In this document: in pieces, positions 334 through 21,524 of the stretch
How the letters are laid out: every line of letters begins with the position of its first letter
Numbering within the stretch: position 1 is the first letter of the stretch
Origin: Desulfobotulus pelophilus
Lineage (GTDB): Bacteria; Desulfobacterota; Desulfobacteria; Desulfobacterales; ASO4-4
Assembly (NCBI RefSeq): GCF_026155325.1
Contig: NZ_JAPFPW010000021.1
Coordinates: 1-50,876 of the forward strand
Reading direction: 5' to 3'
DNA: 50,876 nt
The notes under the pieces: model-generated
What the model was told of the DNA's origin: nothing
Seen by the model: the letters and a program-made list of their open reading frames with translations, nothing else
The model's database searches: none
Translations under genes and position numbers: made by a program

Positions 334-1395
334 ATGTATTTTAATACGAAATTGATGCAAATTGTGGTTTTGGGTTTGTCACCTCAAGGATTAGCGCTTT
401 TGAGAGCATATGCAAGATCCGGTTTTAGCGTTGTTGCTGTCGGGTTCCCCGAAGATGTAGGTATTTATTCTAGATATGGTAAAGTTGTGGTTATACATCA
501 CTGTAGTGAAGTGCCTATGGTTTTGAGCCGATTTGCACGCAGTGGGTGTAAAATCCATATAACAAGTGACATTATGTTGAATTATATCATTGATAGTCTC
601 GTTGAATTGTTTGATATATATAATATTTCTCCTCCTTTAAATGCAGCCATCTTGCTAAGAGATAAGGCAGAAACATATAAGTATTTTAGTGTCTATGGAG
701 TTATCGCCTGTCCAAAGTCATATACATTAAACGATAGTATAAATTGGCATTTCCCAGTTATAGCAAAGTGGAATAGAACGAATAGAGTAACTTCATTTAA
801 AACAGCGACAATAGAATCCCATAAAGATTTAACAAAATATCGATATATTGACGGTTTGATTTTTCAAGAATACATTGAAGCAGAGAGGAGTTCAAATGTA
901 AGTTATTGTGGTTATTATGAAAATGGCACAAAAAAAATAGATGCTCTTGTTTGTCAAAAGCGCCAGTATCCAATCGGTATTTCTAGTTGTGTGGTCCTGC
1001 TGGGTAATGAGCATAGGATTGTAATTGATGTATCGAGGCGAATTCTTGAAGATCTCAGATTTGATGGTTTTGTTGAAATTGAATATAGAATTTCTTCTCT
1101 GGATCAGAAGTATTATTTGATAGAAGTTAATCCAAGGGCGTGTGGTTGGATTAAATTTTTAATGCCATCCTTTTCACATAAAATCTTGGGAAATAGTTCA
1201 GAAAAGTTTAATAGCAAAAAAGTTTGGATTAATATTATAAGGGATATAAGGGCAATATGGCACTCAAAAGAAATGTCTCTTAATAACCTGAGAATGTACT
1301 TCAGGGAATACTTTATTGATTCAATCAAGGATATATATGATGTTAAAGACTTTAAGCCTTTTCTTTTTCAATTTTTTAAAAGGCTAAAAAAATAA
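334..1395 (+). CDS. ATP-grasp family enzyme of a glycan cluster
   Basis: The protein has 353 residues. It opens with a Rossmann-like pre-ATP-grasp segment (QIVVLGLSPQGLALLRAY, residues 9-26). A central ATP-grasp fold follows, and the C-terminal part carries the metal/ATP-binding strands FDGFVEIEY and YLIEVNPRACGW (about residues 246-276). EVNPR is the characteristic carboxylate-binding motif. Family members ligate a carboxylate to an amine or thiol at the cost of ATP. The substrate cannot be read here, but in surface-glycan clusters such enzymes are suspected of amidating sugars with amino acids. ATG 334 was chosen because TGAGG lies ahead of it, while the in-frame ATG at 355 lacks a ribosome site. 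The gene is strongly A+T-rich, unlike the housekeeping genes to the right, which suggests transfer. Confidence 0.75.
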   Translation: MYFNTKLMQIVVLGLSPQGLALLRAYARSGFSVVAVGFPEDVGIYSRYGKVVVIHHCSEVPMVLSRFARSGCKIHITSDIMLNYIIDSLVELFDIYNISPPLNAAILLRDKAETYKYFSVYGVIACPKSYTLNDSINWHFPVIAKWNRTNRVTSFKTATIESHKDLTKYRYIDGLIFQEYIEAERSSNVSYCGYYENGTKKIDALVCQKRQYPIGISSCVVLLGNEHRIVIDVSRRILEDLRFDGFVEIEYRISSLDQKYYLIEVNPRACGWIKFLMPSFSHKILGNSSEKFNSKKVWINIIRDIRAIWHSKEMSLNNLRMYFREYFIDSIKDIYDVKDFKPFLFQFFKRLKK

Positions 1396-1426
1396 AATTA
1401 TAATTTTGGCGAAGGAGGGAGGAGGA

Positions 1427-2095
1427 ATGGTTTTTTTTTTGAAAAGAGCTTTTATAAGTATTAAAGATGAAGGGCTTCTGAATTTTTTAAAAAATATTAT
1501 AAATTTCATTTTATTTCAAATGGGTATGCGTCCATCTCATACATTTTTTTTTGTTTACGACTTCCAAGATAAAGATTTAATCCCGACTGAACAGAATAAT
1601 TTGCTTTGCTTAAATTTTTCCTTGTCTATAGTAAACACGGTAGATGCCTGTAATGATTATGAGATACCTGATAAGTTAAAGCAATTGCCTCTGAGAGAAT
1701 GGTTTGAAAAAAAATCTATTCTTTTTTTTGTCTTGCGCAACAATAAGATTGCCGCGTATGCGTGGGTTCACTTTGATTTTTATGATAATCTCGGTCCAGC
1801 TGGTACTCTCTACCTGGATTCTCAAGAAGTTTTCATAGGGCCATTTTTTACGGTAACAGAACATAGAAAAAAGGGGCTGTATGATTTGCTAATGAAACAG
1901 ATACTTTGTTTTTTGAGAGTGCAAGGGATTCAAAAAGCCTATGGGTCGTCAAATATTGAAAATATGGCCACCGTTCGTGTTTTATTGGTTAAGAATAAAT
2001 TTAAATTGATAGGGCTTGTTACTGCAGGATCCCAAAAAAAGAACATTATTGATTTTGCAGCTTCTGATAAACCTTTTTCAGAGAAAGTCATATAA
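1427..2095 (+). CDS. GNAT-family N-acyltransferase
   Basis: The protein has 222 residues. ATG 1427 is preferred because a very strong purine-rich ribosome site (GGAGGGAGGAGGA) lies directly before it; the upstream in-frame TTG at 1406 would put that site inside the gene. The C-terminal half holds the GNAT core: VFIGPFFTVTEHRKKGLYD has the beta4 strand and a variant of the acyl-CoA pyrophosphate loop, followed by a helix and ENMATVRVLLVKNKFKLIG, which matches the usual asparagine-bearing beta5-alpha4 part. The likely role is acylation of an amino sugar or lipid-linked intermediate made by the neighbouring genes. The amino-terminal 50 residues are hydrophobic and basic and could associate with the membrane. 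Composition is A+T-rich like the gene before it. Confidence 0.65.
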   Translation: MVFFLKRAFISIKDEGLLNFLKNIINFILFQMGMRPSHTFFFVYDFQDKDLIPTEQNNLLCLNFSLSIVNTVDACNDYEIPDKLKQLPLREWFEKKSILFFVLRNNKIAAYAWVHFDFYDNLGPAGTLYLDSQEVFIGPFFTVTEHRKKGLYDLLMKQILCFLRVQGIQKAYGSSNIENMATVRVLLVKNKFKLIGLVTAGSQKKNIIDFAASDKPFSEKVI

Positions 2096-2100
2096 TTGTC

Positions 2101-3264
2101 ATGATAAGAATCATTTTTACTAGATCTTTTGAATCCTTGAGGATCGGAGGGGTAACCGTTTATGTCAAGATGTTACTGAAACAATTTGATGATAGCAAGT
2201 TCAAGGTCTTGAATTATAATAGTATGAATAAAGAATCTTTTCTTGCTGATGAACCTTTAACAAGATGGAATGAAAAGGTTGTTAGAATAAGACTTCTTTT
2301 TTTTATGCTGTTGTTCCCATTTAGGCTGGTTTTTCAAGGTGCTGATATAGTGCATGCAAATCCATCTATGAATCAAAGAGCTATATTAAGGGATGGTATT
2401 TTTATTTTAATGTCTAAGATTTTTAGAAAAAAAATCCTTGTATTTATTCATGGGTGGGATGATCGAGAGTTTGAGAAAATCAGTACCTGCAGGTTAAGAA
2501 AGTTTCTTTTTTTAAAGGTTTATAATTATTCGGATCTTTTGGTCGTTTTATCGGAACAGTTTTCAGAAAAGTTGTTGAAAATTGGCATAAATAAAGAAAT
2601 TTCGGTAGAAACTACGATGTTGGATGAATCTTTTATTGTAGATGCAGAGATTAAAAAAAAGATTGATAATCTTTTTGATAAAAAAACAATTAATATCCTT
2701 TTTTTATCCCGTATAGAAAAAACGAAAGGTATTTATGAGGCTATTGATGCCTATACTATTTTAAAATCAAAGGGTTTTGATGTTGCTCTGACTGTTGCTG
2801 GAGACGGGAATGAGCTTGCAAAGATTAAACTATATGTGTCAGGAAAAAAAATTCAAAATGTTACTTTTGCAGGGTTTGTTTCTGGGCGAGATAAGCATCG
2901 GGTTTTTATGCGGGGGGATGTATTTCTATTTCCAACTTATTTTGAAGGTATGCCGATATCTATGCTTGAGGTAATGGCTTATGGAATGCCTGTCATTTCA
3001 AGATCTGTAGGCGGTATTCCAAGCGTTTTGTCTGATGGAATCAATGGATTTATGACTTATTCTAAAGATCCTGAGATTTTTTCTTCGTTTGTAATTAAAT
3101 TATTAGAAAACAGGTGTCTTTTTCACTCGATTGCACGGAACAATGCTAGGCTGGCAAAAGAAAAATTTTATTCTGCGGTAGTCGGCAAAAGAATTGAAAA
3201 AAGATACGAAAACCTTCTTGGCGAAAACATACCTAAATCATCTGAATGTAAGCGATTGTCATAA
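2101..3264 (+). CDS. Glycosyltransferase family 4 (GT-B fold)
   Basis: The protein has 387 residues and a GT-B layout. The N-terminal acceptor domain includes VHANPS and FIHGWDD. The C-terminal nucleotide-sugar domain begins near residue 196 with INILFLSRIEKTKGIYEAI. It contains VAGDG, FAGFVSG and the signature EGMPISMLEVMAYGMPVI (about residues 282-299), in which the E-x7-E pattern of retaining GT4 enzymes is intact. The next segment, GGIPSVLSDGINGF, also fits. It should transfer a sugar from a nucleotide donor to a lipid-linked acceptor at the cytoplasmic face of the membrane. It starts six bases after the acyltransferase stop and abuts the next gene, so it belongs to one transcription unit. 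Donor and acceptor cannot be inferred. Confidence 0.85.
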   Translation: MIRIIFTRSFESLRIGGVTVYVKMLLKQFDDSKFKVLNYNSMNKESFLADEPLTRWNEKVVRIRLLFFMLLFPFRLVFQGADIVHANPSMNQRAILRDGIFILMSKIFRKKILVFIHGWDDREFEKISTCRLRKFLFLKVYNYSDLLVVLSEQFSEKLLKIGINKEISVETTMLDESFIVDAEIKKKIDNLFDKKTINILFLSRIEKTKGIYEAIDAYTILKSKGFDVALTVAGDGNELAKIKLYVSGKKIQNVTFAGFVSGRDKHRVFMRGDVFLFPTYFEGMPISMLEVMAYGMPVISRSVGGIPSVLSDGINGFMTYSKDPEIFSSFVIKLLENRCLFHSIARNNARLAKEKFYSAVVGKRIEKRYENLLGENIPKSSECKRLS

Positions 3265-4332
3265 ATGTTAGAATTGATAATTAGCCTTGATTATGAAATT
3301 CTTGGTAACGGCGGCGGTGATGTCCGCACCATGGTTATTGAGCCTACCCGTCGTATTTTGGATATCTGTGACCGGCATGAAGCTAAATTGACTATCATGT
3401 TTGAAGTTGCAGAATATCTTGCTTTTAAAGCGGCTTCTTTAAAAAAAAAGAGGGCCTTTGGGTATGATCCGGCATTTTTGATGGAGGAACAGGCCAAGGA
3501 TGCAATACGCAGGGGGCATGATGTTCAGCTTCATATACATCCACAGTGGATGGGAGCTGAATTGCATGATGGATTATGGCATTTAAATATGCAGCATTAC
3601 CGAATTGCGGATTTGCCAAATGGCTATGGTAGTGAGGAAGACCCTTTATCTATTCTTGGTGCTTTGTATATTGGACGCAAGACCCTTGACGATATGCTCA
3701 AACCAATTAAGCCTTCCTATGAGTGCCGGATTTTTCGTGCGGGAGGTTATTATGTGCAGCCTGCTTCTTTAGTAATTCAAGCCATGCGCCATGCCGGTTT
3801 ATGGGCGGATAGTTCTGTGGTTAAGGGGCTGCATATAACAGAACCATGGGAACTGGATTATAGAACCGCAGAAAGTTGCTGTAATTATTGGTGGACAGGG
3901 CTGGATGATGTGGCTGTTAAGGGTGAAAAGGGTAAAGGGGTTCTTGAGTTTCCAGTTTATTCCTTTGCTGCTCCTTATTATAAAAACTTCACATTCCCTA
4001 AGCTTTTTTCTACCCTTAAACGCAGAACCATAGAAAAAAAAGACCCTCATTTAAAAATAAATAAGTTTCAAAGCACACCGCCAATAAACTCTTTGCGGGA
4101 TAGATTCTTTGGTGAGCATACCCATGTTTTTGATTTTTGTAAGCTTTCAGCGTCTGTCATGGTAGATATTGTGAAAAAAGAACATGAATCAGAAATACTT
4201 GTGGTTAATGGGCACAATAAGGATTTCTGGAATGACAAAAATTTTGACAGGTTTCTTTATGAAGTAAAAAATATGAGCCTTGTTCGTTTTGCCACGTTCT
4301 ATGAAAGTGTTTACCCGATTTATAATGGATGA
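3265..4332 (+). CDS. Polysaccharide deacetylase-like (NodB-fold) protein
   Basis: The protein has 355 residues and begins directly after the preceding stop codon. The N-terminus LIISLDYEI provides the Asp of a NodB-type metal site, and GHDVQLHIHPQW near residue 90 gives the H-x-H-x2 pattern typical of the polysaccharide-deacetylase superfamily. The region FRAGGYYVQPASLVIQAM looks like the conserved R-x-G/GG motif 3, and a late histidine in VVNGHNKDFW may complete the site. This longer variant is commonly found in surface-glycan clusters and may remove an N-acetyl group from a sugar of the growing chain. There is no signal peptide, so action in the cytoplasm is inferred. The last four bases overlap the next gene (ATGA), indicating translational coupling. 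Confidence 0.65.
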   Translation: MLELIISLDYEILGNGGGDVRTMVIEPTRRILDICDRHEAKLTIMFEVAEYLAFKAASLKKKRAFGYDPAFLMEEQAKDAIRRGHDVQLHIHPQWMGAELHDGLWHLNMQHYRIADLPNGYGSEEDPLSILGALYIGRKTLDDMLKPIKPSYECRIFRAGGYYVQPASLVIQAMRHAGLWADSSVVKGLHITEPWELDYRTAESCCNYWWTGLDDVAVKGEKGKGVLEFPVYSFAAPYYKNFTFPKLFSTLKRRTIEKKDPHLKINKFQSTPPINSLRDRFFGEHTHVFDFCKLSASVMVDIVKKEHESEILVVNGHNKDFWNDKNFDRFLYEVKNMSLVRFATFYESVYPIYNG

Positions 4333-5486
4333 AAATGGAAATTAAAGAGTTAGTAACAGAACTTTCTGACTATTGCCGCTCCTACAGCTACGCAGGCCAT
4401 GACCCCTACGATGCCCTGAACAGCCCACTTATCCAGCGTCTGACTTTTAAAAACAAGTATCTGCGTATCATCGCAACCCAGCTTGTCCGGCGTTCTCCCA
4501 TAAACATCCGTCCGCTTCTGGGTATTCAAAAGGGTGAAAACCCCAAAGGCATCGGTTTGTTTCTGTGGGGCTATACCAAGCTTCACCGCATGGATCCAAA
4601 GAAGGAATATAAAGAAGAGATGGGCTATCTCTTCTCAAGGCTGGAAGCTTTGGAATCTCAAGGATATTCTGGTAGCTGCTGGGGTTATAATTTTGACTGG
4701 CAGTCTCGTACTTTTTTCAGGCCCAAGGGTACTCCCACCATAGTAAATACATCCTTTATCGGTCATGCCCTTCTGGATGCCTATGAAACCTTTGGTGAAA
4801 AGACTTATCTGGAAAAAGCTCTTTCCATAAGGCATTTCATGCTGAAGGATCTTAAGCGCACCCGTCTGGATGAGGACAGTTTCTGCTTTTCCTATACGCC
4901 AGTGGATACCGCTGTGGTGCATAATGCCAACATGCTCGGCGCATCCCTTCTCATCCGCCTTTATGCCCATTGCAGAGAAGAAGAGGTGAAGGTTGCCGCC
5001 CTTTCTGCCCTTTCCTATTCCATGAAACATCAGCGTGAGGATGGTTCATGGTATTATGCGGATACATTTTCAGAAAAATGGATAGATTCCTTTCATACGG
5101 GCTTTAATCTCCAGGCCCTTCGTTGGTTTATTCAGGAAGGTCACGGAGAAAGCTACCGGGAAGCTTATAATAAAGGGGTGGATTATTACGCTAGTAATTT
5201 TTTTCTGGAAGATGGAACGCCCAAGTACTTCCACAATCAGGTGTATCCCATAGATGTCCATGCCCCTGCCCAGGCCATCGTCTTTTTTTCCGGTGAAGGT
5301 GAAGAATATCGTGACCTGACGGAAGGAATACTCCGTTGGACAGTAAGGCATCTTTATAGTGGAGAAGGTTGGTTTTATTTTCAGAAAAACCGCCATTGGA
5401 TGAACCGGATTTCCTATATGCGCTGGACACAGGCTTGGGCCTTTCATTCTTTGACTGAGTATCTTCGTAGAAAGACAATAACATGA
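4329..5486 (+). CDS. Alpha/alpha-toroid protein of glycan clusters, function unknown
   Basis: The protein has 385 residues. Repeated helix pairs and aromatic motifs such as SCWGYNFDWQSR, NTSFIGHALLDAYE, REDGSWYYAD and SFHTGFNLQALRW are what one expects of an (alpha/alpha)6 barrel, as in glycan-active lyases, hydrolases and epimerases. Relatives in databases are often given the misleading name delta-aminolevulinic acid dehydratase. It overlaps the deacetylase-like gene by four bases, so the two are probably made in fixed ratio and act on the same glycan. No signal peptide is visible. Base use is richer in G+C than both flanking genes, which makes it a composition island in the A+T-rich cassette. 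No reaction can be assigned. Confidence 0.6.
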   Translation: MKMEIKELVTELSDYCRSYSYAGHDPYDALNSPLIQRLTFKNKYLRIIATQLVRRSPINIRPLLGIQKGENPKGIGLFLWGYTKLHRMDPKKEYKEEMGYLFSRLEALESQGYSGSCWGYNFDWQSRTFFRPKGTPTIVNTSFIGHALLDAYETFGEKTYLEKALSIRHFMLKDLKRTRLDEDSFCFSYTPVDTAVVHNANMLGASLLIRLYAHCREEEVKVAALSALSYSMKHQREDGSWYYADTFSEKWIDSFHTGFNLQALRWFIQEGHGESYREAYNKGVDYYASNFFLEDGTPKYFHNQVYPIDVHAPAQAIVFFSGEGEEYRDLTEGILRWTVRHLYSGEGWFYFQKNRHWMNRISYMRWTQAWAFHSLTEYLRRKTIT

Positions 5487-5502
5487 AATGATAGGTGTTA
5501 GA

Positions 5503-6516
5503 ATGAAGATTTGGTTTGAAATAACAAACTCACCACATATCAATCTTTTTATCAATATCATGAAGGAATTAGAAAAAGATCATGAAGTGATGATAACATG
5601 TAGGGATCTTGCCAATACTATAGATCTTTTAAAACTGCACGAGCTAAAATTTGAAATAGTCGGTTCGCATTATGGCAAAAGTCTATTTAAGAAAATTTGG
5701 GGTTTTCCTATCCGTGTTTTAAATCTGATATCCTTTATTAAAAGAAAAAGGCCTGATGTTGCCATAGGGCAAAGTTCGTTTCAGCAGCCAATAGCTGCAA
5801 GATTAATGGGTGTGCCTGTCATATACATGAACGATAATGAGCATGCGTGGGGCAACATACCGTCATTTCTTTTTGCGAATAAAATACTGATCCCTGAATA
5901 TTTAAGCATGCAGACGGTAAAAAAGCAGCTCGCCTTTCCAGGAAAAGTGACGAAATACCCTGGCTTGAAAGAAGGGATTTATCTTTGGCGATTAGTGTCC
6001 AATCGCAATAAGGCAAAAAAGAACGGCAGAAAAGTAGTCTTTTTTAGGCCAGAGCCTAGGACAGCCCAGTACTATCATGGTGATACCTCTGATTTGGATG
6101 CTTTTCTTATCAAGCTTAAGGATATTTTTGATGTTGTGATTTCTCCAAGGGATTTATTCCAGAAACAGTATTATGAGCAGGAAAAGTTTTATGGAATTTA
6201 TGTTCTGGATAAACCCTTGCCAATAAAAAAAATAATAGAAATATGTGATGTGTTTATTGGTGCTGGCGGGACTATGTCCAGAGAAATGGCCGTAGCGGGC
6301 ATTCCAACAATATCCGTTTACCACGGTGCCATGTTGGAAGTGGATAGTTATCTTTTGAAAAACAAAATGCTGTTGCATAAGACATCGCTTGACATTGATT
6401 TTTTTCAATCGTTTATTGCTGAATATAAAGAAGATAAGAATTTTAAGCTTTTAGCAAAAGGGAAAGAAGCAGAAATGCTTATAATAAAAATAATTTTGAA
6501 TAAAGGAGACGTTTAA
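5503..6516 (+). CDS. DUF354 family GT-B-like protein
   Basis: The protein has 337 residues from the ATG at 5503. That start puts the family-typical opening MKIWFEITNSPHINLF at the N-terminus and has AGGTG seven bases upstream; the ATG at 5488 is an alternative. DUF354 proteins have a GT-B fold related to UDP-GlcNAc 2-epimerase and lipid A disaccharide synthase. The first domain carries HEVMITCRDLANTIDLL and RPDVAIGQSS. The second carries VFFRPEPRTAQYYHG and the glycine-rich CDVFIGAGGTMSREMAVAGIP sugar-nucleotide-type loop. Family members occur widely in surface-polysaccharide and archaeal glycan clusters, but their reaction is not established to my knowledge. The gene is A+T-rich and follows the toroid gene almost without a gap. 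Confidence 0.7.
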   Translation: MKIWFEITNSPHINLFINIMKELEKDHEVMITCRDLANTIDLLKLHELKFEIVGSHYGKSLFKKIWGFPIRVLNLISFIKRKRPDVAIGQSSFQQPIAARLMGVPVIYMNDNEHAWGNIPSFLFANKILIPEYLSMQTVKKQLAFPGKVTKYPGLKEGIYLWRLVSNRNKAKKNGRKVVFFRPEPRTAQYYHGDTSDLDAFLIKLKDIFDVVISPRDLFQKQYYEQEKFYGIYVLDKPLPIKKIIEICDVFIGAGGTMSREMAVAGIPTISVYHGAMLEVDSYLLKNKMLLHKTSLDIDFFQSFIAEYKEDKNFKLLAKGKEAEMLIIKIILNKGDV

Positions 6517-6517
6517 T

Positions 6518-7540
6518 ATGCTTAAGGCGGGGGTGGTAGGTATAGGAAAAATGGGACTGTCCCATTGTGCCATTTTGAGAGCGCATTCTGATATTGGCTC
6601 TCTCGCAGTTTGTGATACTTCAGGTTTTTTATTGTCTGGAATAAAAAAATATACAGACTTCAGTTGTTATACTGATTATAAAAAAATGATTAAAGAAAAT
6701 AAGCTTGACTGTCTTTTTATTTCGACGCCTTCTAAATTTCATAAAGAAATAATTCTATTTGCGTTACAGAATAATATCAACGTTTTTTGTGAAAAACCAT
6801 TAACTCTTTCCCATGAAGATTCTGAGGAAGTTTCTGAACTTGCTGAGGCCAGGGGGCTTGTGACTCAAGTTGGATATCATAATAAGTTTATAGGTACGTT
6901 TCAGGCAGTTAAGAGATTTCTTGATGCAGCACTTATTGGCGATGTCTATCATATTAATGGATCTGCCTATGGTCCAGTGGTTATAAATGAGGAAGGTGAA
7001 ACGTGGCGCTCTGACCCGAAGGAAGGGGGGGGGTGTCTTCTTGACTATGCGGCACATGTCGTTGATTTAATGATTTACATGGTTGATATGCCAGAAAAGG
7101 TTTCTGGTACGATTTTAAAAAAAGTGTACTCTAAAAAAGTAGAAGATGCTGTTTATTCGAATCTTTTCTATGCAAATGGCATGACGGGCCAGCTTTCCGT
7201 AAACTGGAGTGAAGAAACGTACCGGAAAATGACTACAAAGATAGAAATTCTTGGGAAGAGAGGGAAAATTGTTTCCGATGCTCAGGAATGTCAGGTGTAT
7301 TTAAAGGATCAATCACCATGCGGTAAATTTGAAAAAGGTTGGAATAGTTTTTGGATAACGGATCAGACGGAGCCTGTATGGTTTAATTTAAGAGGTGAAG
7401 AATATTCCGCACAGATTGATTGCTTTGTCAAAAGAGTTGTTGAGAAGAATTCGGCAGGGGTGAATTCTTTTAAGAACTCTTTAAAAACGGACAAGGTTAT
7501 TTCAATGCTGCAAAATGACGGGGCAGGGGGGAAAGCTTGA
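6518..7540 (+). CDS. Gfo/Idh/MocA family NAD(P)-dependent oxidoreductase
   Basis: The protein has 340 residues. It has an N-terminal dinucleotide fold (GVVGIGKMGLSHCAI, residues 5-19) and the superfamily motif NVFCEKPLTLS (about residues 87-97), whose EKP lysine takes part in catalysis. After VTQVGYHNKF comes a C-terminal alpha/beta substrate domain with GGGCLLDYAAHVVDLM, where the conserved histidine of the D-x3-H pattern is present. In sugar clusters such enzymes oxidise or reduce a hydroxyl of a UDP- or lipid-linked sugar, for example at C3 ahead of amination. There is no aminotransferase beside it, so a 3-keto or uronate-type reaction cannot be chosen. GGAGACG lies ahead of the ATG. The next gene starts at its stop codon. 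Confidence 0.8.
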   Translation: MLKAGVVGIGKMGLSHCAILRAHSDIGSLAVCDTSGFLLSGIKKYTDFSCYTDYKKMIKENKLDCLFISTPSKFHKEIILFALQNNINVFCEKPLTLSHEDSEEVSELAEARGLVTQVGYHNKFIGTFQAVKRFLDAALIGDVYHINGSAYGPVVINEEGETWRSDPKEGGGCLLDYAAHVVDLMIYMVDMPEKVSGTILKKVYSKKVEDAVYSNLFYANGMTGQLSVNWSEETYRKMTTKIEILGKRGKIVSDAQECQVYLKDQSPCGKFEKGWNSFWITDQTEPVWFNLRGEEYSAQIDCFVKRVVEKNSAGVNSFKNSLKTDKVISMLQNDGAGGKA

Positions 7541-8394
7541 TGGATAAAGTTATTTTTGGTGATAACCAGTTTTTTGGTGTCAATCATCTGTCGGAGGAAA
7601 AAGCCAGGCAGCAGATGAAAAAATTTAAAGATATAAAGAATATATTGAGAGTTCTTGATGATGTAAATGATATGGGAATCAAGACTTTTATGGTGACAAC
7701 CTATGAAAGCGTAGAACAGATTTGTGACCATGTCCGGATTAATTCGGATCAGTATAAAGATTTTAAAATTAACCCCTGCCTTCCTTATGCCCATAAATAT
7801 GCTAATTCCGTTGCAGCTATGGGCATTTTTGGTACTTTAAAGAAATATTTAAAAGGAAATATTGTTCAGTCAATTTCAAAGGGGGGGGTTGCCTTAGCTA
7901 GAAAAGATTTTGAGAAAATAATGGAAATTCTAATAGATGCGGAACTTTCGATTTTTAAGGGAGTCACTGTAGAGGCTGTCTTTTTGCAAAATGTTGTGAC
8001 GGATCTTTTGCTTGGTCTTGGTATGTTCGATTTTTTTGAAGCCTTTGTTCGTTATGTCGAAAACAGATATAAGGTCAGGGCTGGATTTATTACTATGAAT
8101 ATGCCGATGCTGTACGATGTTCTTGAATCCAGGGGTATCAGCAATCCTGTTATTTGTTCTTCCATCAATAAAATAAACTTTAGGATGTCGGGCGGTATAG
8201 AACAATATAAAACATATCTGGCTGAAAAAGAGTTCCATGCCATTGCCATGCAGGTCTTGGCAGCAGGTGCCTTGAGGCCTAAAGAAGCAATGGAGTTTAT
8301 TGGAAGCCTTGAAGGGGTAGATTCTGTGCTTTTTGGTTCATCGACAAAAGAACATATTTTGGATACCAAGCTGCTTATAGAGCAGTACCTATAA
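7540..8394 (+). CDS. Unrecognised TIM-barrel-like protein of the glycan cassette
   Basis: The protein has 284 residues from ATG 7540, which shares a base with the preceding TGA; the in-frame TTG at 7537 is less likely. I do not recognise a named family with certainty. The N-terminus (VIFGDNQFFGVNHLSEEKA) and the C-terminus (AIAMQVLAAGALRPKEAMEF, then VDSVLFGSSTKEHI) look like the first and last strands of a TIM barrel, and the end recalls aldo-keto-reductase-like proteins. The usual aldo-keto-reductase catalytic Tyr/Lys/His pattern is not evident. Tight coupling to the Gfo/Idh/MocA gene suggests that the two work on the same sugar intermediate. A+T-rich, as its upstream neighbour. Confidence 0.55.
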   Translation: MDKVIFGDNQFFGVNHLSEEKARQQMKKFKDIKNILRVLDDVNDMGIKTFMVTTYESVEQICDHVRINSDQYKDFKINPCLPYAHKYANSVAAMGIFGTLKKYLKGNIVQSISKGGVALARKDFEKIMEILIDAELSIFKGVTVEAVFLQNVVTDLLLGLGMFDFFEAFVRYVENRYKVRAGFITMNMPMLYDVLESRGISNPVICSSINKINFRMSGGIEQYKTYLAEKEFHAIAMQVLAAGALRPKEAMEFIGSLEGVDSVLFGSSTKEHILDTKLLIEQYL

Positions 8395-8433: not shown

Positions 8434-9522
8434 ATGAAAATCTGCATTATAGCCGGTGCCAGGCCCAATTTTATGAAAATTGCTCCCCTGATCCGAGAGA
8501 TTCAGCGTCATGATACCTTGGATTTTATTCTGGTCCATACCGGCCAGCATTATGATTATGAAATGTCCGAGGCCTTTTTCAAGGATCTTGAAATTCCAAG
8601 GCCGGGTTATTTTCTGAATGTGGGTTCTGCCAGCCATGCAAAACAGACAGCCGCCATCATGTCTGCTTTTGAAGATGTCTGCCTTGCGGAAACGCCGGGT
8701 CTTGTGCTTGTGGTGGGCGATGTGAACTCCACCATGGCGGCCTCCATTGTGGCCAAAAAGCTTGAAATCAAAGTGGCGCACATAGAGGCAGGTCTGAGAA
8801 GCTTTGATCTTTCCATGCCCGAAGAAATCAACCGCATGGTCACCGATGCCATCACGGATTATTTTTTTACCACGGAAAAAGCGGCGGATGACAATCTTGT
8901 CAGGGAAGGCAAGCCCCTGTCTGCCATCCATTTTGTGGGCCATGTGATGATTGATAATCTTCTCTATCAGAAAGAACGGCTTGGAGATCTGCCGGGTTTT
9001 TTGGGTAAGGAATTTAAGGAAAAGTATCCGGAATATTTTTTCATGACCCTGCACCGGCCTTCCAATGTGGATGACAAGGCGGTTTTGCAGGGCATTTTTG
9101 ATGCCCTGAATGAGATTGCAGAGGAAACGCCCTTTATTTTTCCCGTGCATCCCAGAACAAGAAAGCAGCTGGATGCCTTTGGTATAAGGGTTTCGGAGCG
9201 CATAGAACAGGTTCCTCCTTTGGGCTTTAAGGAATCCTTGTATCTGTGGAAGGATGCAAAGGCGGTGTTTACGGATAGCGGCGGTCTTCAGGAAGAAACC
9301 ACAGGCCTTGGGGTACCCTGTTTCACCTTGCGGGATAACACGGAGCGACCTGTCACAATTGAGGAGGGAACCAATCTGCTTGTGGGTAGTAAAACGGAAG
9401 ATATTCTTAAGGCATGGCAGGATATGAAGGAAGGCCGGATAAAAAAAGGCCGGATTCCTGCCTTGTGGGATGGCAGGGCTGCGGAGAGGATTGTGGATGT
9501 TTTGTTTGAGCATAAGGTATAG
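8434..9522 (+). CDS. wecB: UDP-N-acetylglucosamine 2-epimerase, non-hydrolysing
   Basis: The protein has 362 residues, close to the usual 370-380. It interconverts UDP-GlcNAc and UDP-ManNAc in the cytoplasm. Recognisable motifs are GARPNFMKIAPLI (8-20), HTGQHYD (35-41), VVGDVNSTMA with Asp96, AHIEAGLRS with Glu118, MPEEINRMVTDAI with Glu131, the HRPSNVDD histidine near residue 205, and DSGGLQEETTGLGVPC near 277-292. The three acidic catalytic residues are all present. It is the last gene of the cassette and its base use is richer in G+C than the genes just upstream, resembling the chromosome backbone. UDP-ManNAc could be a building block for the glycan. No epimerase-linked dehydrogenase (WecC type) is visible in the window. 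Confidence 0.93.
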   Translation: MKICIIAGARPNFMKIAPLIREIQRHDTLDFILVHTGQHYDYEMSEAFFKDLEIPRPGYFLNVGSASHAKQTAAIMSAFEDVCLAETPGLVLVVGDVNSTMAASIVAKKLEIKVAHIEAGLRSFDLSMPEEINRMVTDAITDYFFTTEKAADDNLVREGKPLSAIHFVGHVMIDNLLYQKERLGDLPGFLGKEFKEKYPEYFFMTLHRPSNVDDKAVLQGIFDALNEIAEETPFIFPVHPRTRKQLDAFGIRVSERIEQVPPLGFKESLYLWKDAKAVFTDSGGLQEETTGLGVPCFTLRDNTERPVTIEEGTNLLVGSKTEDILKAWQDMKEGRIKKGRIPALWDGRAAERIVDVLFEHKV

Positions 9523-9723
9523 GTCGTATTTTTGTGTGCTGGTCTTTTGGTTGCCGGGGTGAGTTTTCGAAAAAAGAAGTGTTCAAAAATAGGGTTGTGC
9601 TTTTAACATAACATGATAAAAATACTTCATTGTGATTTGGTTTATAATTTTTTGTTGTAAAATAAGGTAGCGTTTGAATTGCTGTATCCCTTCCAATTTT
9701 TGAGATAGAGAAAGGGTAAAGAC

Positions 9724-10101
9724 ATGACCGAAGCTGGATCGTCTGGCGTGGAAAGGCGGCGGGCTCCGCGTTTTGAGGCTAAGCACAAAGCCATTGCCGT
9801 TTTGAACGCAAAACCGGTTCGCATAGGGCAGGTGCTGGATATCAGCGATATAGGGCTTGCCTTTTCCTATATGGAAAATATTGAATGGCCCCCTCTGCCC
9901 TATTACGATGATGCTTATCTGGAGTTGAGTTGTGAGGATCTGTATCTGAGCATTCCTTCTTCTCAATATCGTGTAGTGGCGGATATGCCCATGAAGCCAC
10001 AGAGCCCGGCATGCAGCATACCCATGCGCAGGGTATCCATCGCGCTGTGCGATCTTGCTCCTGAAGATACGGCCTTCCTTGCCTGCTACAGAAGCTATTG
10101 A
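9724..10101 (+). CDS. PilZ domain protein, likely c-di-GMP receptor
   Basis: The protein has 125 residues and consists of a single PilZ domain. Both c-di-GMP-binding elements are visible: RRAPRF near residues 12-17 (R-x3-R) and DISDIGLAF near residues 39-47 (D-x-S-x2-G). The ATG follows GAAAGGGTAAAGAC. It ends just before galU and is probably cotranscribed with it, which suggests that c-di-GMP influences polysaccharide precursor supply or the export machinery downstream. The link to a particular partner is inference. A perfect TATAAT at 9643-9648 lies about 75 bases upstream, but no good -35 element was found. Confidence 0.75.
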   Translation: MTEAGSSGVERRRAPRFEAKHKAIAVLNAKPVRIGQVLDISDIGLAFSYMENIEWPPLPYYDDAYLELSCEDLYLSIPSSQYRVVADMPMKPQSPACSIPMRRVSIALCDLAPEDTAFLACYRSY

Positions 10102-10190
10102 TTCACGCTGCTAAGGGGTCCGGAGTTGTGGAGCCGGAGTTCTCCTGTTCTCTTTTGCGTACTGTTTGCTATAACAAAGAAAGGTTGCTC

Positions 10191-11033
10191 ATGATTCAGA
10201 AGTGTCTGTTTCCGGCTGCTGGGTACGGAACCCGTTTTCTTCCCGCAACCAAAGCCATGCCCAAAGAAATGATGCCCGTTGTCAACAAGCCGCTCATTGA
10301 GTACGGTGTTGAAGAAGCACTGCAGGCCGGTATGGTGGATATGTGTATTGTGACGGGGCGGGGTAAAAATGCCATTCTGGATCATTTTGATATGAATTAT
10401 GAGCTGGAGCACCAGATCTCCGGCACCAGCAAGGAAGACCTTTTGGCCGGTATTCGTGCTGTTATTGAGAAAGCCAACTTTACCTATATCCGTCAGCGGG
10501 AAATGAAGGGGCTGGGGCATGCCATATTAACAGGCCGCGCCCTGGTTGGGGATAACCCCTTTGCCGTGGTACTGGCGGATGATCTCTGTATTCATCCGGA
10601 AGAAGGCGTGCTGGCCCAGATGGTTGGGCTGTACAGGCAGTTCCGGTGCTCCATTGTGGCCGTGGAGGAAGTGCCGGCGGATGAAACCCATAAATATGGT
10701 GTTATTGCGGGGAAGGCACTTACCAACTCCCTTGTGTGTGTGGAAGATATGATAGAAAAGCCGGAGCCGGGCAAAGCCCCCAGCAATCTTGCCATCATCG
10801 GTCGCTATATTCTTACGCCGGATATTTTCGATATCCTGGAACAGACCCCACCCGGTAAAAATGGTGAAATACAGATCACAGACGCCCTGCTGCAGCAGGC
10901 GAAAACGGGGTGTGTGCTTGCGTACAAGTTTAAGGGAAAACGATTTGACTGCGGAACCGTAGACGGCTTTATTGCCGCAACCAACTATTGTTATGAAAGA
11001 TTTTGTTCCTGTCGGCCGAACGGACACGGCTAG
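10191..11033 (+). CDS. galU: UTP-glucose-1-phosphate uridylyltransferase
   Basis: The protein has 280 residues from ATG 10191, which has AAAGG about seven bases upstream. The longer in-frame ORF from 10098 adds non-conserved sequence, so that start was rejected. The nucleotidyltransferase signature FPAAGYGTRFLPATKAMPKE begins at residue 7. KPLIEYGVEEAL, ILDHFD, QREMKGLGHAIL, VLADDL and MIEKPEPGKAP follow in the order expected for GalU. The enzyme makes UDP-glucose from UTP and glucose 1-phosphate. With galE at 22963 it can supply UDP-Glc and UDP-Gal to the exopolysaccharide pathway, and it lies directly upstream of the export operon. Confidence 0.93.
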   Translation: MIQKCLFPAAGYGTRFLPATKAMPKEMMPVVNKPLIEYGVEEALQAGMVDMCIVTGRGKNAILDHFDMNYELEHQISGTSKEDLLAGIRAVIEKANFTYIRQREMKGLGHAILTGRALVGDNPFAVVLADDLCIHPEEGVLAQMVGLYRQFRCSIVAVEEVPADETHKYGVIAGKALTNSLVCVEDMIEKPEPGKAPSNLAIIGRYILTPDIFDILEQTPPGKNGEIQITDALLQQAKTGCVLAYKFKGKRFDCGTVDGFIAATNYCYERFCSCRPNGHG

Positions 11034-11324: not shown

Positions 11325-12764
11325 ATGCTGCGTGAAAATTCCGATACCTTGAACAGCTTTCACAGGCTTGCGGATCTCGTTTTAACGGCGTTTTCGTTTT
11401 TGATTGCCTACGGGATTAAAAAGAACGGATTTTTTGGCTTGGGAGGCCTGTCTCAGGAGCCGGATTACAGGCTCGTAGTGCTGTTTATTCTTGTGATATG
11501 GTATTTTGTCTTCGATTGGAACCGGGTGTATGCACCTTTCAGGAATCAGAATATCGCAGAAATTCTCCTGCGTCTTTATAAATCTGTTTTTGTTTCGCTT
11601 ATGGTGTTTTCTCTTGCGATCTATCTCTTGAAAATAGAGGGGTTGAGCCGGGCACTGATTCTTCTTTTTGTGTCTGTGAACCTGACCCTTCTGACCTTTT
11701 CTAAGGTTGCCGTATTTCGCATGCTGGCATCTGTGCGATCAAACGGATATAATTATAAAAATATACTGGTGGTTGGCAGCAGGACAAGGGCAGCCATCTT
11801 CATGCGTTCCATTCTGGATAAGGCGGAGAAAGGGTACAGGATCTGCGGGTGTCTGGAAACAGACCGCGACCGGCTGGGTGTCTGGGTTGCCGGTTCCATT
11901 CATGTGACGGCCCACGTAGATGAGCTGAAAAACATTTTGGAAACCCAGGTGGTGGATGAGCTGGTTTTTGCCATGCCCCTGAAAAAAATAGACAACGCGG
12001 ATGAGCTGATTGTCATGGCAGAGGATATGGGAGTAAAGTGCCGTATCATCCCGGACTGGCAGCTTCATTATCTTATGTATAAACCGGATACGGCAACCAT
12101 ACGATTTGAGTCCTTTCTGGGAACTCCCAGTATTGCCCTGCACATGATCACCGGTAATGACAGGTTACTGATGTATAAAACGGCCATTGATTACATATTC
12201 TGTGTTCTGGCCTTTATCTTTTTGCTGCCCCTTTTTGTGCTGATCGGGGCAGCCATCCGAATTTGTTCGCCGGGCCCGGTTTTCTATAAACAAAAACGGA
12301 TAGGACTGCACGGCAGGGTATTTGAGGTCTATAAGTTTCGGACCATGGTGATGGATGCGGATGCCATGCTGGATCAGTTGAAAGACCTCAATGAGGCGGA
12401 TGGACCGGCTTTCAAGATCAAAAACGATCCGCGAATTATTCCATGGGTAGGAACCTTTCTGAGAAAAACCAGCTTGGATGAATTGCCCCAGATTATGAAT
12501 GTGCTGAAGGGAGAAATGAGCCTTGTTGGGCCACGTCCGCCTTTGCCCTCAGAGGTAGGCGAATATTCCGTGTGGCAGCGCAGACGCTTATCCATGAAGC
12601 CGGGGCTTACCTGCATCTGGCAGATCGCGCCCGGAAGAAATGATATCCGGTTTGACGACTGGATGCGGATGGATCTGGAATATATCGATAACTGGTCCTT
12701 GTGGCTGGATATGAAGCTGGTGATGAAAACCATTAAGTCCGTGCTGTTGGGTGCGGGGAGATAA
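11325..12764 (+). CDS. Polyprenyl-phosphate phosphoglycosyltransferase (WbaP type)
   Basis: The protein has 479 residues. Four N-terminal hydrophobic helices (about 17-33, 49-66, 87-103, 109-130) precede a Rossmann-like CoA_binding_3 domain that starts with ILVVGSRTRAAIF near 147. A fifth membrane segment near 287-309 leads into the catalytic bacterial sugar-transferase domain. That domain contains CSPGPVFYKQKRIG, VYKFRTMVMDAD, TSLDELPQIMNVLKGEMSL, GPRPPLPSE and MKPGLTCIWQI. The Asp-Glu pair expected for the phosphoglycosyltransferase reaction is in SLDELPQ. It transfers a sugar 1-phosphate from UDP-sugar to undecaprenyl phosphate and so starts each repeat unit. The length and layout match the WbaP/EpsB-type enzymes of Wzx/Wzy pathways. 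It is the first gene of the operon. Confidence 0.92.
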   Translation: MLRENSDTLNSFHRLADLVLTAFSFLIAYGIKKNGFFGLGGLSQEPDYRLVVLFILVIWYFVFDWNRVYAPFRNQNIAEILLRLYKSVFVSLMVFSLAIYLLKIEGLSRALILLFVSVNLTLLTFSKVAVFRMLASVRSNGYNYKNILVVGSRTRAAIFMRSILDKAEKGYRICGCLETDRDRLGVWVAGSIHVTAHVDELKNILETQVVDELVFAMPLKKIDNADELIVMAEDMGVKCRIIPDWQLHYLMYKPDTATIRFESFLGTPSIALHMITGNDRLLMYKTAIDYIFCVLAFIFLLPLFVLIGAAIRICSPGPVFYKQKRIGLHGRVFEVYKFRTMVMDADAMLDQLKDLNEADGPAFKIKNDPRIIPWVGTFLRKTSLDELPQIMNVLKGEMSLVGPRPPLPSEVGEYSVWQRRRLSMKPGLTCIWQIAPGRNDIRFDDWMRMDLEYIDNWSLWLDMKLVMKTIKSVLLGAGR

Positions 12765-12780
12765 AACAAGGGAGGTAGTT

Positions 12781-13341: not shown

Positions 13342-13417
13342 GTGCGTTTTGCCTGCTGAGGCATGAGGGCAAGGGCCTTACAATCAACGGCTGGATTTAT
13401 TGGGGAAGGAAGCTGGG

Positions 13418-14695
13418 ATGAAAAAGTTAATGATAACAGGTCTTCTGGCCTTTATCTTTGTGCTGCCCGTTATGGCGGAAGAAGGTCGTTTTCCGGGTGT
13501 TTCCGGTGATGGCATCTCCGGTGATGTATTGGGCATGCAGCGGCGGAATGTGCATTCTGCCGTGGCCCTGGGTTTTCAGTATACGGATAACCTGTATAAT
13601 TCTAAAAATAATAAGGAAGCTGACACATCCTTTATTTTTTCACCTTCCATCGCCCTTGCATTGCCGGGAACCCGGCGGGTGGATGTGGCTCTTTCACCGG
13701 ATACGGCAGCACCGGGGGGGCTTGGTTTCTCCAGAGAACGGGTAGATTCCACGGACCGCTACCTTGCCTACCTGGTGTATAACCCCAAGGCGGAGTTTTA
13801 TGCGGATAACAGTGATGAAAATTTTACCAGCCACAATGTGAAAGGTGCTGTGCAGTACAATGCTCCCGGAGGGCTCACCCTTGATCTGGCAGCCAAATAT
13901 GCCAAGGCCAGTGAAGCCAGGGGAGAGGTGGGTAACCGGTATCTGGATGAGTATGAGGACATGCTTTATGATTTTATTGTTCGCTACGATTTTTCTCCCA
14001 AACTTTTTGTAAGGGGCACGGCATCCGGTTATAATCTGGAATATGACCGCACGGAATCAGACTTTAGAAACCGTACGGACATGGCCTGGTCCATGGCAGC
14101 GGGTTACAAGTTCAGCCCGAAAACCGAGCTTTCCATGGAATACCAGAAGGTCTGGGTGGATTATGATAAGCTGCTGGAGAACCCCGGTACCCATTTCCGT
14201 AGAGACAGTGATGAACAGCGGTATGCTCTGAATCTGGCATGGCGCATGACAGCCAAATCCCGTGGTCGCTTTAAGATTGGTCAGGTGGAAAAAAGTCTGG
14301 ATGGAGGCAAGGATGATACGGCCCTTTTTATGGAGCTTCAGCTGGTCCACAACATAACCACAAGATCCCAGATTATGCTGGAAGCATCCCGGCGATTTTA
14401 TGAAACAAACTTTAAGGAAGCCAGTTATTATATTTCTGAAAGAATCAACCTGGCCTATCGCCAAGAGTTTACACCGCGCATCACCGGCAAGGTTCGCCTG
14501 GGCTGGAGTGCGGATGATTATTCCGGAATTACCCTTGAAAACGATACCTATCGTTTCAATCCTTCCTGCGAATACAGTTTCAATAACTGGCTGGCCATAG
14601 AAGGCGGGTACTCCTATGTAAAAAGAACTTCCGACAGGAATGATCTGGAATATGACACCAATACCTTTACCCTGACCGTAATCGGGCGTTTTTAA
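13418..14695 (+). CDS. Outer-membrane beta-barrel protein of the export operon
   Basis: The protein has 425 residues from ATG 13418, with AAGGA eight bases upstream; the in-frame TTG at 13400 was rejected. A signal peptide (MKKLMITGLLAFIFVLPVMA) is followed by alternating-polarity strands with aromatic girdle residues, such as AVALGFQYTDNLYN, KLFVRGTASGYNLEY, TELSMEYQKVWVDY and SQIMLEASRRFYETNF. The protein ends TLTVIGRF with a terminal Phe, the classic signal for barrel insertion. About 18 strands seem possible by eye. It resembles the outer-membrane proteins found beside OPX genes in exosortase and myxobacterial exopolysaccharide loci. It may form the outer-membrane exit for polymer exported through the next gene's product. 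Confidence 0.75.
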   Translation: MKKLMITGLLAFIFVLPVMAEEGRFPGVSGDGISGDVLGMQRRNVHSAVALGFQYTDNLYNSKNNKEADTSFIFSPSIALALPGTRRVDVALSPDTAAPGGLGFSRERVDSTDRYLAYLVYNPKAEFYADNSDENFTSHNVKGAVQYNAPGGLTLDLAAKYAKASEARGEVGNRYLDEYEDMLYDFIVRYDFSPKLFVRGTASGYNLEYDRTESDFRNRTDMAWSMAAGYKFSPKTELSMEYQKVWVDYDKLLENPGTHFRRDSDEQRYALNLAWRMTAKSRGRFKIGQVEKSLDGGKDDTALFMELQLVHNITTRSQIMLEASRRFYETNFKEASYYISERINLAYRQEFTPRITGKVRLGWSADDYSGITLENDTYRFNPSCEYSFNNWLAIEGGYSYVKRTSDRNDLEYDTNTFTLTVIGRF

Positions 14696-14722
14696 AATGC
14701 CGTGAGGGTTATGAATGATCCG

Positions 14723-14757
14723 GCTTGCCGCACGTTCTGCGGCAGGCTTTTTCTTTT
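14723..14757 (+). terminator. Intrinsic terminator inside the exopolysaccharide operon
   Basis: GCTTGCCGCA at 14723-14732 pairs with TGCGGCAGGC at 14738-14747 (one G-T pair, loop CGTTC) and is followed by TTTTTCTTTT. This strong rho-independent signal lies between the barrel gene and the wza-like gene, so it could separate or attenuate the two halves of the operon. Confidence 0.8.
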
Positions 14758-14768
14758 AAGGAACAGGC

Positions 14769-15581
14769 ATGTACGTGAGATGGAATGTAGTTGTTTTTTG
14801 TGTGCTGTTGTGGTGTTTGGGCTTTTCCGTTCCAGCTCCGGCTGATGATTACACCGTTGGCCCCGGAGATACCCTTGACATCCGTGTGTATAATCACGCG
14901 GATCTTTCCGTAAAGGCCAGTGTTTCCGGAGAGGGAACCATCCGTTATCCCCTGTTGGGTGAATTCAGAATCAGCGGTAAAACCCCTTCAGAAATTTCTG
15001 TGCTGATCGAAAACATGCTGGCAGACGGGTACATCCTGAATCCCCAGGTATCGGTGTTTCTGAACGAGTACAGAAGCCGGAAGGTAACCATTCTGGGCGA
15101 GGTGGATAAGCCGGGACTCTATGAACTGGCGGGTCGTATTTATCTTCTGGAGCTGATTTCAAGGGCGGGCGGCCTGACTCTGGATGCCGGGCGCTCCGTT
15201 TACGTTACGCGCTCCAACGGGACAACAGAAAATGGAGATGCCGGGCAGGAAGTGCTGCATGTGGATCTCCACCAGCTCATTGAGCAGGGTGATGTGGGCC
15301 AGAATATCCTGATACGAAACGGAGACAGTGTTTTTATTCCCAAGGTGGAAAAGATTTATGTGACCGGCGAGGTCCGGCGACCGGCTGCCTACAGTTACGA
15401 TGCGGATCTTACCCTGATTAAGGTTCTGACCAATGCAGGCGGTTTAACGGATAAGGCCTCTTCCAGAAACATACGGATCATACGGGATGTGAATGGAGAA
15501 AAAGTGGTGCTCCAGCGGGTCTCCATGGATCAGAGGGTGCAGCCCAATGATGTGATTGTTGTGCCGGAAAGTTTTTTTTAG
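14769..15581 (+). CDS. Polysaccharide export (OPX) protein, Wza-like, short form
   Basis: The protein has 270 residues. After a signal peptide ending near APADD there is a Poly_export domain (YTVGPGDTLDIRVYNHADLS, then GTIRYPLLGEFRISGKT, about residues 28-105). Two SLBB domains follow, starting at VTILGEVDKPGLYEL and at IYVTGEVRRPAAYSY. It is much shorter than E. coli Wza (about 380 residues) and lacks the C-terminal amphipathic helix that forms Wza's outer-membrane pore. No lipobox cysteine is evident; the LLWC in the signal region is a poor match. It therefore probably forms a periplasmic conduit and needs another outer-membrane channel, for which the adjacent barrel is the obvious candidate. 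AAGGAACAGGC precedes the ATG. Confidence 0.88.
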   Translation: MYVRWNVVVFCVLLWCLGFSVPAPADDYTVGPGDTLDIRVYNHADLSVKASVSGEGTIRYPLLGEFRISGKTPSEISVLIENMLADGYILNPQVSVFLNEYRSRKVTILGEVDKPGLYELAGRIYLLELISRAGGLTLDAGRSVYVTRSNGTTENGDAGQEVLHVDLHQLIEQGDVGQNILIRNGDSVFIPKVEKIYVTGEVRRPAAYSYDADLTLIKVLTNAGGLTDKASSRNIRIIRDVNGEKVVLQRVSMDQRVQPNDVIVVPESFF

Positions 15582-15677
15582 TCGGAAGTTTTTGTATTCC
15601 CTGCCCGCTGGAAAAGGTTCCGGCCTGAAACCGCTGGAGCTCAACTGGTCTTGATCAAATAAGGATGTGTTCTGATT

Positions 15678-20892: not shown

Positions 20893-20923
20893 AAACGCAG
20901 TACGAAGAAAATGGGGTGGAAAC

Positions 20924-21508: not shown

Positions 21509-21524
21509 AAAGGTCTTTCGTCCT

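Follow-up and report, generated by a model that had tools for sequence, protein, structure and literature searches.

The 50,876-nucleotide stretch of Desulfobotulus pelophilus DNA analysed here (positions 1-50876 of contig NZ_JAPFPW010000021.1, C21 in our numbering; hereafter the window) opens with a cassette of eight genes at 334-8394. It is well supported that this cassette is a mosaic of two modules, genes 1-6 and genes 7-8, which travel separately and do not form a single conserved unit. For module 1 we propose, with somewhat less than even confidence, that a 2-acetamido uronic acid is transferred by a DUF354 protein, inverted at C5 by an alpha/alpha-toroid protein and amidated by an ATP-grasp ligase. 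Module 2 pairs a Gfo/Idh/MocA dehydrogenase with a barrel protein that is likely, judging from profile comparison, a remote relative of the aldo/keto reductases (AKRs). The cassette is of a known kind, an exopolysaccharide sugar cassette, and three of its families, those of the toroid, the DUF354 protein and the barrel, would gain a proposed reaction.

All eight open reading frames (ORFs) lie on one strand and are separated by 0-10 bp, except at two junctions where neighbours overlap by 4 bp. Homologues of genes 1, 3, 4, 5, 6, 7 and 8 were found in the searched genomes and loci, so these are not chance ORFs; gene 2 had no match among the fetched ORFs or loci and rests on its Pfam match. The tight packing described in the initial annotation, which was made from the letters of the window, is thus real. 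Its family labels were confirmed in part: GNAT, GT4, DUF354 and Gfo/Idh exceeded their Pfam cut-offs, while the ATP-grasp assignment of gene 1 stayed below (19 bits, cut-off 23.2), and the best NCBIfam matches of gene 1, CPSase-like ATP-grasp models, fell far under theirs. The cassette comprises the following genes:

334..1395, + strand: gene 1 (353 aa), ATP-grasp ligase of module 1, whose predicted role is to activate the carboxylate of a uronic acid so that an amide can form; the true start is possibly the ATG at 355.
1406..2095, + strand: gene 2 (229 aa), GNAT acyltransferase (PF00583, 22.7 bits, cut-off 20.7); the start is possibly the ATG at 1427.
2101..3264, + strand: gene 3 (387 aa), GT4 glycosyltransferase (109 bits, above the Pfam cut-off).
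3265..4332, + strand: gene 4 (355 aa), deacetylase-like by motif (D9/E11, H90-x-H92-P, H317), without a Pfam family.
4329..5486, + strand: gene 5 (385 aa), alpha/alpha-toroid, predicted uronic-acid C5-epimerase.
5488..6516, + strand: gene 6 (342 aa), DUF354 (PF04007, 172.7 bits, cut-off 22), weakly GT-B-like, predicted WecG/TagA substitute.
6518..7540, + strand: gene 7 (340 aa), Gfo/Idh/MocA dehydrogenase (Pfam, 82 bits, above the cut-off), first of the module 2 pair.
7537..8394, + strand: gene 8 (285 aa), barrel, probably AKR-related, second of the module 2 pair; the start is probably the ATG at 7540.

The separation of the modules is seen most directly from the side of the barrel. Barrel matches were obtained in 3 of 297 genomes of the phylum and, with a 7-sequence profile, in 8 of 389 genomes of the class (own genome included in both), in four plasmid records and, within genome_contigs, in one real relative (L014); viral_contigs and phage records yielded none, and L015 was dropped, its 8-residue similarity to a PanB protein being due to chance. 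In all 11 other loci that hold a close barrel relative (44-71% identity) together with upstream sequence (L010-L014, L016, L026-L030), a Gfo/Idh gene whose product is 36-70% identical to that of gene 7 lies directly upstream on the same strand, adjacent in nine loci and separated by 0.8-1.0 kb with small ORFs in L013 and L030. The hosts include Palleronia, Rhodovulum, Novosphingobium and Bacteroides (all on plasmids), an unclassified metagenome-assembled genome and members of the window's phylum. When genes 1-6 were compared with these 11 loci by tblastn, three of the loci being contigs shorter than 5 kb, only GT4 matches appeared and none for genes 1, 2, 4, 5 or 6; the GNAT that Pfam calls in L012 does not match gene 2. 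A barrel relative was likewise absent from the 32 other toroid stretches examined. Co-occurrence of the eight families in relatives, expected from the single pathway drawn in the initial annotation, was looked for and not found; the genes split instead into two coherent modules. In L010, L011 and L029 a WecG/TagA gene directly follows the Gfo/Idh-barrel pair. Remote barrels (L009/L017 and L025/L032, about 21-27%) and L031 (36%, at a contig start) stand outside the 11, and the remote ones showed no Gfo/Idh match within their short contigs.

The toroid label of gene 5 held at the level of the family profile and not for the single sequence. The 30-sequence profile matched PDB entries for GH76 mannanase (2.4e-5) and cellobiose 2-epimerase (4.6e-4), both of which have the toroid fold, with unrelated proteins among its weaker matches; the single sequence reached its best family, GH88, below threshold. 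The protein of 385 aa has no extra domains, and R61, P136, Y189, N199, W241, Y243, H256 and W366 are invariant across the 30 aligned sequences, H256 being the only invariant His. Matches occurred in 23 of the 291 genomes searched in the class (counting the window's own; the searches with the toroid, DUF354, gene 4 and gene 1 are taken, from their listings, as one set of 291 genomes) and in 30 plasmid records, many of them haloarchaeal; viral_contigs and phage records held no toroid relative. By analogy, and together with the amidation reading, uronic-acid C5-epimerase would be the best-fitting function, at a probability that we place just short of one half.

Toroid neighbourhoods were compared in 33 loci, namely the first 25 kb of the window, 19 stretches taken from 18 genomes of the class, three bacterial plasmid loci (Vibrio, Pseudoalteromonas and Burkholderia) and ten archaeal plasmid loci. 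The 13 plasmid loci were hand-picked, and toroid matches in G316, G375, G446, G448 and 17 of the 30 plasmid records fall outside this set; a partner was called where blastp reached 1e-8 and covered half of the query or more, so that remote partners are missed. WecG/TagA occurred in nine of the 33 loci, adjacent to the toroid in eight, and DUF354 in 17, adjacent or one gene off in 14. No locus carries both (hypergeometric 3e-4), a figure that is optimistic because the loci share ancestry and some archaeal ones were chosen after DUF354 matches near the toroid had been noticed; among the 23 bacterial loci alone, WecG is found in nine, DUF354 in seven and both in none (hypergeometric 0.014). The window's own genome has no WecG match (PF03808). 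DUF354 weakly resembles PseG, MurG and GT28 models below their cut-offs, and we infer that it may be a transferase standing in WecG/TagA's place beside the toroid. Seven loci carry neither gene (L119, L121, L123, L124, L127, L129, L132); five of them have, in the vicinity, both a GT4-like gene and one for a UDP-sugar dehydrogenase, which suggests a third transferase type. Separately, four bacterial loci (L117, L118, L122 and L125) encode, adjoining the toroid or close to it, an oxidoreductase of 709-790 aa that joins a zinc dehydrogenase domain to a Gfo/Idh domain; this domain assignment was checked with Pfam in L122 only.

A second exchange concerns the ligase. The Pseudoalteromonas locus L084 reads gene-4-like, CapK, GT4, toroid, acyltransferase, WecG, and L120 reads gene-4-like, ATP-grasp, GT4, toroid, WecG; the order gene 4 - ligase - GT4 - toroid - WecG is therefore common to both, with the ligase type swapped. 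CapK also lies two genes from the toroid in L088 and L122. Asparagine synthase stands directly beside the toroid in L126, L130, L131 and L134 (Pfam-called in L130, to which those of L126, L131 and L134 are 62%, 70% and 42% identical) and farther from it in L117 (Pfam-called) and L129. We take ATP-grasp, CapK and asparagine synthase all to activate carboxylates, by unrelated chemistry. In L120 the toroid has a relative of gene 1 (37-38%) two genes away, and in both L120 and L133 it adjoins a relative of gene 3 (42-43%). An amidation step, as the initial annotation had supposed, is thus plausible, with the slot near the toroid holding CapK or asparagine synthase elsewhere instead of ATP-grasp.

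Few genomes carry gene 4 (6 of 291 in the class, counting the window's own), and it shares genomes with the toroid: among the 290 other class genomes gene 4 occurs in five, the toroid in 22 and both in three (Fisher p = 0.0035), always within about 5 kb of each other in the three shared carriers. Its earlier description as deacetylase-like rests on motifs and not on a family. D9, E11, GHD.QLH.HPQW, F157-x-AG and H317 are invariant in seven relatives (window included), and residues among D9, H90, H92 and H317 may correspond to the Asp-His-His metal triad of CE4/NodB enzymes; the protein has no Pfam match (PF01522 included), and hhalign found no similarity to any of six polysaccharide deacetylases that are annotated as such or called by Pfam.

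A parallel to module 1 is found in Vibrio polysaccharide, which contains L-GulNAcA amidated with glycine and for which C5 inversion of D-ManNAcA was proposed, no such enzyme being named in the available part of the source (PMC3901696). As far as the accessible text of a 2015 review goes, the C5-epimerase and the glycine-adding enzyme are both unknown (PMC4432689), and the accessible part of a 2024 study of this polymer mentions neither vpsJ nor an epimerase (PMC11637428); a partial literature search found no C5-epimerase named for GulNAcA. In another partly available source vpsJ is of unknown function, vpsI encodes a glycosyltransferase, and vpsE and vpsH are predicted to serve export (PMC5109742). 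The Vibrio sp. THAF191d locus L088 (WecB, WecC, VpsD-like, Wzx, VpsF-like, acetyltransferase, CapK, GT4, toroid, WecG) resembles vpsA-K by gene order, with the place of vpsC empty and the toroid at the vpsJ position, and in the Pseudoalteromonas sp. THAF3 locus L084 the toroid also stands where vpsJ would be. We take vpsH to be the CapK gene and vpsK to be WecG. These vps-like clusters unite WecB, GT4 and toroid, as the window does, with a carboxylate-activating enzyme near the toroid and, in L084, a relative of gene 4. They differ in that the window has ATP-grasp and not CapK, DUF354 and not WecG, and only WecB, with no linked WecC, where the clusters hold WecB and WecC for UDP-ManNAcA; their order GT4 - toroid - WecG is met in the window by GT4 - gene 4 - toroid - DUF354. 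The Gfo-barrel pair of the window was not found in L088 or L084, and their Wza/Wzc-type export has its counterpart in EpsE-like and tyrosine autokinase genes downstream of the cassette.

Haloarchaea offer another comparison. According to the available text, Halobacterium Agl32 is a C5-epimerase that acts on a lipid-linked glycan, consists of an alpha-helical domain only and resembles cellobiose 2-epimerase (PMC13308652); Haloferax AglQ is a proposed isomerase in the portion at hand of its report (PMC3827465), and a Halobacterium homologue replaces AglQ in that of another (PMC4335974). Compared by description only, Agl32 (a D-glucuronyl C5-epimerase) and AglQ share with the toroid a single alpha-helical, AGE-resembling domain and a uronic-acid pathway, and differ in substrate, which is GlcA or a hexuronic acid as against the HexNAcA suggested for the toroid. 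Loci of Natronorubrum, Halomarina, Haladaptatus and Halobellus place DUF354 beside the toroid, as in the window, and two from Natronorubrum (L090, L170) also carry genes annotated as polysaccharide deacetylase and glycosyltransferase, together with GNAT and WecB genes; this deacetylase is assigned by annotation and gene 4 by motif. Neither the ATP-grasp protein nor the barrel was matched in these DUF354-toroid loci. In Haloferax L171 and Salinigranum L172 the annotations set the toroid with a dehydrogenase, WecB, a deacetylase, GNAT, an aminotransferase and Gfo/Idh, gene sets that would fit a diacetamido-uronic acid.

From these comparisons we infer reactions, substrates and a step order for both modules. 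In module 1, WecB (possibly yielding UDP-ManNAc) and a UDP-sugar dehydrogenase from contig C28 or C5 would provide a 2-acetamido uronic acid, which DUF354, replacing WecG/TagA, would put on the lipid-linked repeat unit; the toroid would then epimerise this uronic acid at C5, turning for instance D-ManNAcA into L-GulNAcA, and the ATP-grasp enzyme would activate the C6 carboxylate and couple an amine such as glycine. GT4 may contribute another sugar, and the gene 4 protein and GNAT might exchange acyl groups. In module 2, Gfo/Idh would oxidise a sugar hydroxyl using NAD, and the barrel would convert or re-reduce the resulting keto-sugar. The order oxidised, deacetylated, amidated that was drawn initially is unreadable from the genes, and C5-epimerisation, a step missing from it, fits the comparative data better. 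As for precursors, the genome has two UDP-dehydrogenases (PF00984), on C5 and C28, the latter 33-35% identical to WecC and other nucleotide-sugar dehydrogenases; a UDP-dehydrogenase, WecB or WecG is present in 24 of 33 toroid loci, a weak contrast because 6 of 12 other loci also carry one. A second glycan cluster at C28:1-16000 (L168) includes this C28 UDP-sugar dehydrogenase, asparagine synthase, a DegT-type aminotransferase and Gfo/Idh, and is a possible UDP-uronic acid source for the cassette.

Extended beyond the window, the toroid might represent a new C5-epimerase class that acts on 2-acetamido-uronic acids in bacteria and archaea, including the missing enzyme of Vibrio polysaccharide, with DUF354 replacing WecG/TagA, any of three ligase types amidating, and the Gfo-barrel pair forming a separate rare-sugar system with a tetrad-less AKR; we regard this combined proposal as speculative and rather doubtful. 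If true, it would tell what the toroid, DUF354 and barrel proteins catalyse, all three families being uncharacterised and two of them occurring here in both bacteria and archaea, and it would supply candidates for both Vibrio enzymes that the accessible text of the review calls unknown (PMC4432689). The mutual exclusion of WecG and DUF354, like the interchange of ATP-grasp, CapK and asparagine synthase, provides a gene-level rule for large genome sets.

Turning to the enzymes of module 2, gene 7 is no called member of its best NCBIfam family, UDP-GlcNAc 3-dehydrogenase (110.9 bits, cut-off 450). It is like this Gfo/Idh/MocA enzyme in that match and in CEKP and H180, which are invariant among its relatives (D176 in six of seven), and differs in having a barrel, not an aminotransferase, as partner. 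The barrel, left unrecognised at first, indeed has no Pfam, curated NCBIfam or single-sequence PDB match; none of seven members matches PF00248 (aldo/keto reductase), and the own genome holds no PF00248 match. Its profile gave 13 weak PDB matches (best E 0.089), all in the C-terminal part: nine to Kv-beta2, two to aldo/keto or related reductases, one to a putative oxidoreductase and one to cytochrome c1. By hhalign, the 15-sequence barrel family aligned with 18 AKRs gathered with phmmer over 236 columns with a score of 42.7, compared with a maximum of 23.3 for 17 controls (four barrel or hydrolase sets of 1-2 sequences, a reversed AKR, ten column shuffles and two unrelated alignments), 28.3 for PanB and 15.8 for TrpA. 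A 7-sequence barrel alignment reverses the ranking (PanB 43.3, AKRs 34.3), so AKR descent is likely but not proven; individual AKR sequences reach 12.7-32.4 when compared with the family, and the link is therefore visible only from profile to profile. At the D-Y-K-H tetrad of AKRs, Asp is replaced by Met52 in 13 of 15 sequences, Tyr is kept as Tyr88 in 13 of 15, position 115 is Lys in 9 of 15, and His is replaced by Gln151 in 12 of 15 and kept in three remote members. The motif GDNQFFG.NH.SEEKA is invariant in seven sequences. Likeness to the AKR superfamily thus lies in a C-terminal cofactor-like motif, the Tyr equivalent and the profile alignment, and difference in the replaced Asp and His and an insertion of ~30 residues.

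Three further observations concern the pair or relatives of the barrel. The remote barrels L009/L017 and L025/L032 have His at the AKR catalytic position and may be closer to an ancestral form. A DUF2334-like gene, a possible third partner, adjoins the pair in Bacteroides (L012:9946-10932, sub-threshold in Pfam) and in a member of the window's order (L030:965-1942, on the opposite strand), the two products being 52% identical. In L028 a heparinase II/III-like protein (2236-4026) immediately follows the pair.

Several points, besides the optimism of the exclusion figure, weigh against the proposed transfer, epimerisation and amidation or against the broader proposal. The window's ATP-grasp gene lies four genes from the toroid, and a recognised amidating enzyme occurs anywhere in the stretch in 11 of 33 toroid loci versus 2 of 12 other glycan loci, which gives no signal, so the amidation argument rests on kept gene order and not on frequency. 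No UDP-dehydrogenase is found on the window's contig, and nine of the 33 loci have neither UDP-dehydrogenase nor WecB nor WecG (L123 has a dehydrogenase fragment). An earlier prediction, as given in the available part of the source, makes DUF354 a glycosyltransferase that retains few catalytic residues (PMC4520260). The text at hand on Agl32 reports few His, Glu or Tyr in the usual epimerase active-site regions of its homologues and sets these apart from AglQ homologues (PMC13308652), and the accessible review text names VpsB, not VpsJ, as a possible epimerase (PMC4432689). AlphaFold models of the toroid (window sequence alone, mean pLDDT 42.2) and the barrel (window and L014, mean pLDDT 42.9) are of low confidence. 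The export role predicted for vpsH in the part available (PMC5109742) conflicts with the CapK identity that we assumed. Two other functions compete for the toroid itself. With GH76 mannanases as its best profile matches and GH88 as its best single-sequence match, albeit below threshold, it could be a glycoside hydrolase or lyase acting in the cytoplasm to trim or proofread a lipid-linked glycan, the ATP-grasp step being unrelated; yet 22 of 33 toroids adjoin WecG, or adjoin or stand one gene from DUF354, in biosynthetic clusters of bacteria and archaea, and the authors of the AglQ report, in its available portion, judged hydrolysis hard to fit their pathway (PMC3827465), which makes this function unlikely. 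The profile match to cellobiose 2-epimerase would suit an AGE-type 2-epimerase or isomerase, a function we find improbable in view of WecB, itself a 2-epimerase, in 13 of 33 toroid loci including the window, and of a single invariant His against H184, E187, H243 and H374 of cellobiose 2-epimerase as given in the accessible text (PMC13308652).

The tight packing and the 4-bp overlaps suggest one transcript, and on this ground all eight enzymes might act in sequence on one sugar that is oxidised, deacetylated, amidated and acylated. This single pathway has little probability, since the two modules stand apart in the other loci examined and the Gfo/Idh of L171 and L172 comes with an aminotransferase, which is not among the cassette genes. 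Within module 2, the kept cofactor-like motif and Tyr equivalent would allow the barrel to be an active NAD(P)H-dependent reductase that reduces the keto-sugar of gene 7 despite its altered tetrad; with Met for Asp and Gln for His in most members, and a remote alignment that may be off locally, we lean against this but regard it as a real possibility.

Downstream of the cassette an exopolysaccharide locus continues, in agreement with the initial view of a decorated surface glycan:

8434..9522, + strand: WecB, UDP-GlcNAc 2-epimerase (TIGR00236, 308 bits, cut-off 210; GC 48%).
Between WecB and GalU: ORF of 125 aa, tabulated as PilZ, without an NCBIfam match.
10098..11033, + strand: GalU, start of the block common to same-genus G312 (89% identity).
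11325..12764, + strand: polyprenyl sugar-phosphate transferase, which would begin the repeat unit (TIGR03025, 392 bits, cut-off 296).
13400..20892, + strand: export/polymerisation block with EpsL-like, EpsE-like, tyrosine autokinase, CpsB-like and weakly O-antigen-ligase-like genes.

Most NCBIfam scores in the last block are below cut-off, the autokinase domain being above and EpsE below, and EpsF-G-like genes also occur in the locus. The same-genus genome G312 (L040) keeps the block from GalU to EpsE (89, 72, 34, 61 and 66% identity) with different genes upstream of GalU, and neither G309 nor G312, both of the same genus, matched the barrel, toroid, DUF354, gene 4 or gene 1. The cassette has a GC content of 37.2%, compared with 49.3% for 8434-21598 and 51.8% past 22000. 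Because the upstream genes of G312 differ, same-genus matches are absent and GC is 37% against 49%, the cassette is probably the variable, acquired, sugar-specifying end of the exopolysaccharide locus, joined to a conserved export block. Its upstream end is cut off, since the window begins at base 1 of the contig. Elsewhere in the genome, two contig ends (C11:150659-151219 and C43:5301-5735) carry the N- and C-terminal parts of another WecB-like gene, and contigs C11 and C43 may thus be genome neighbours.

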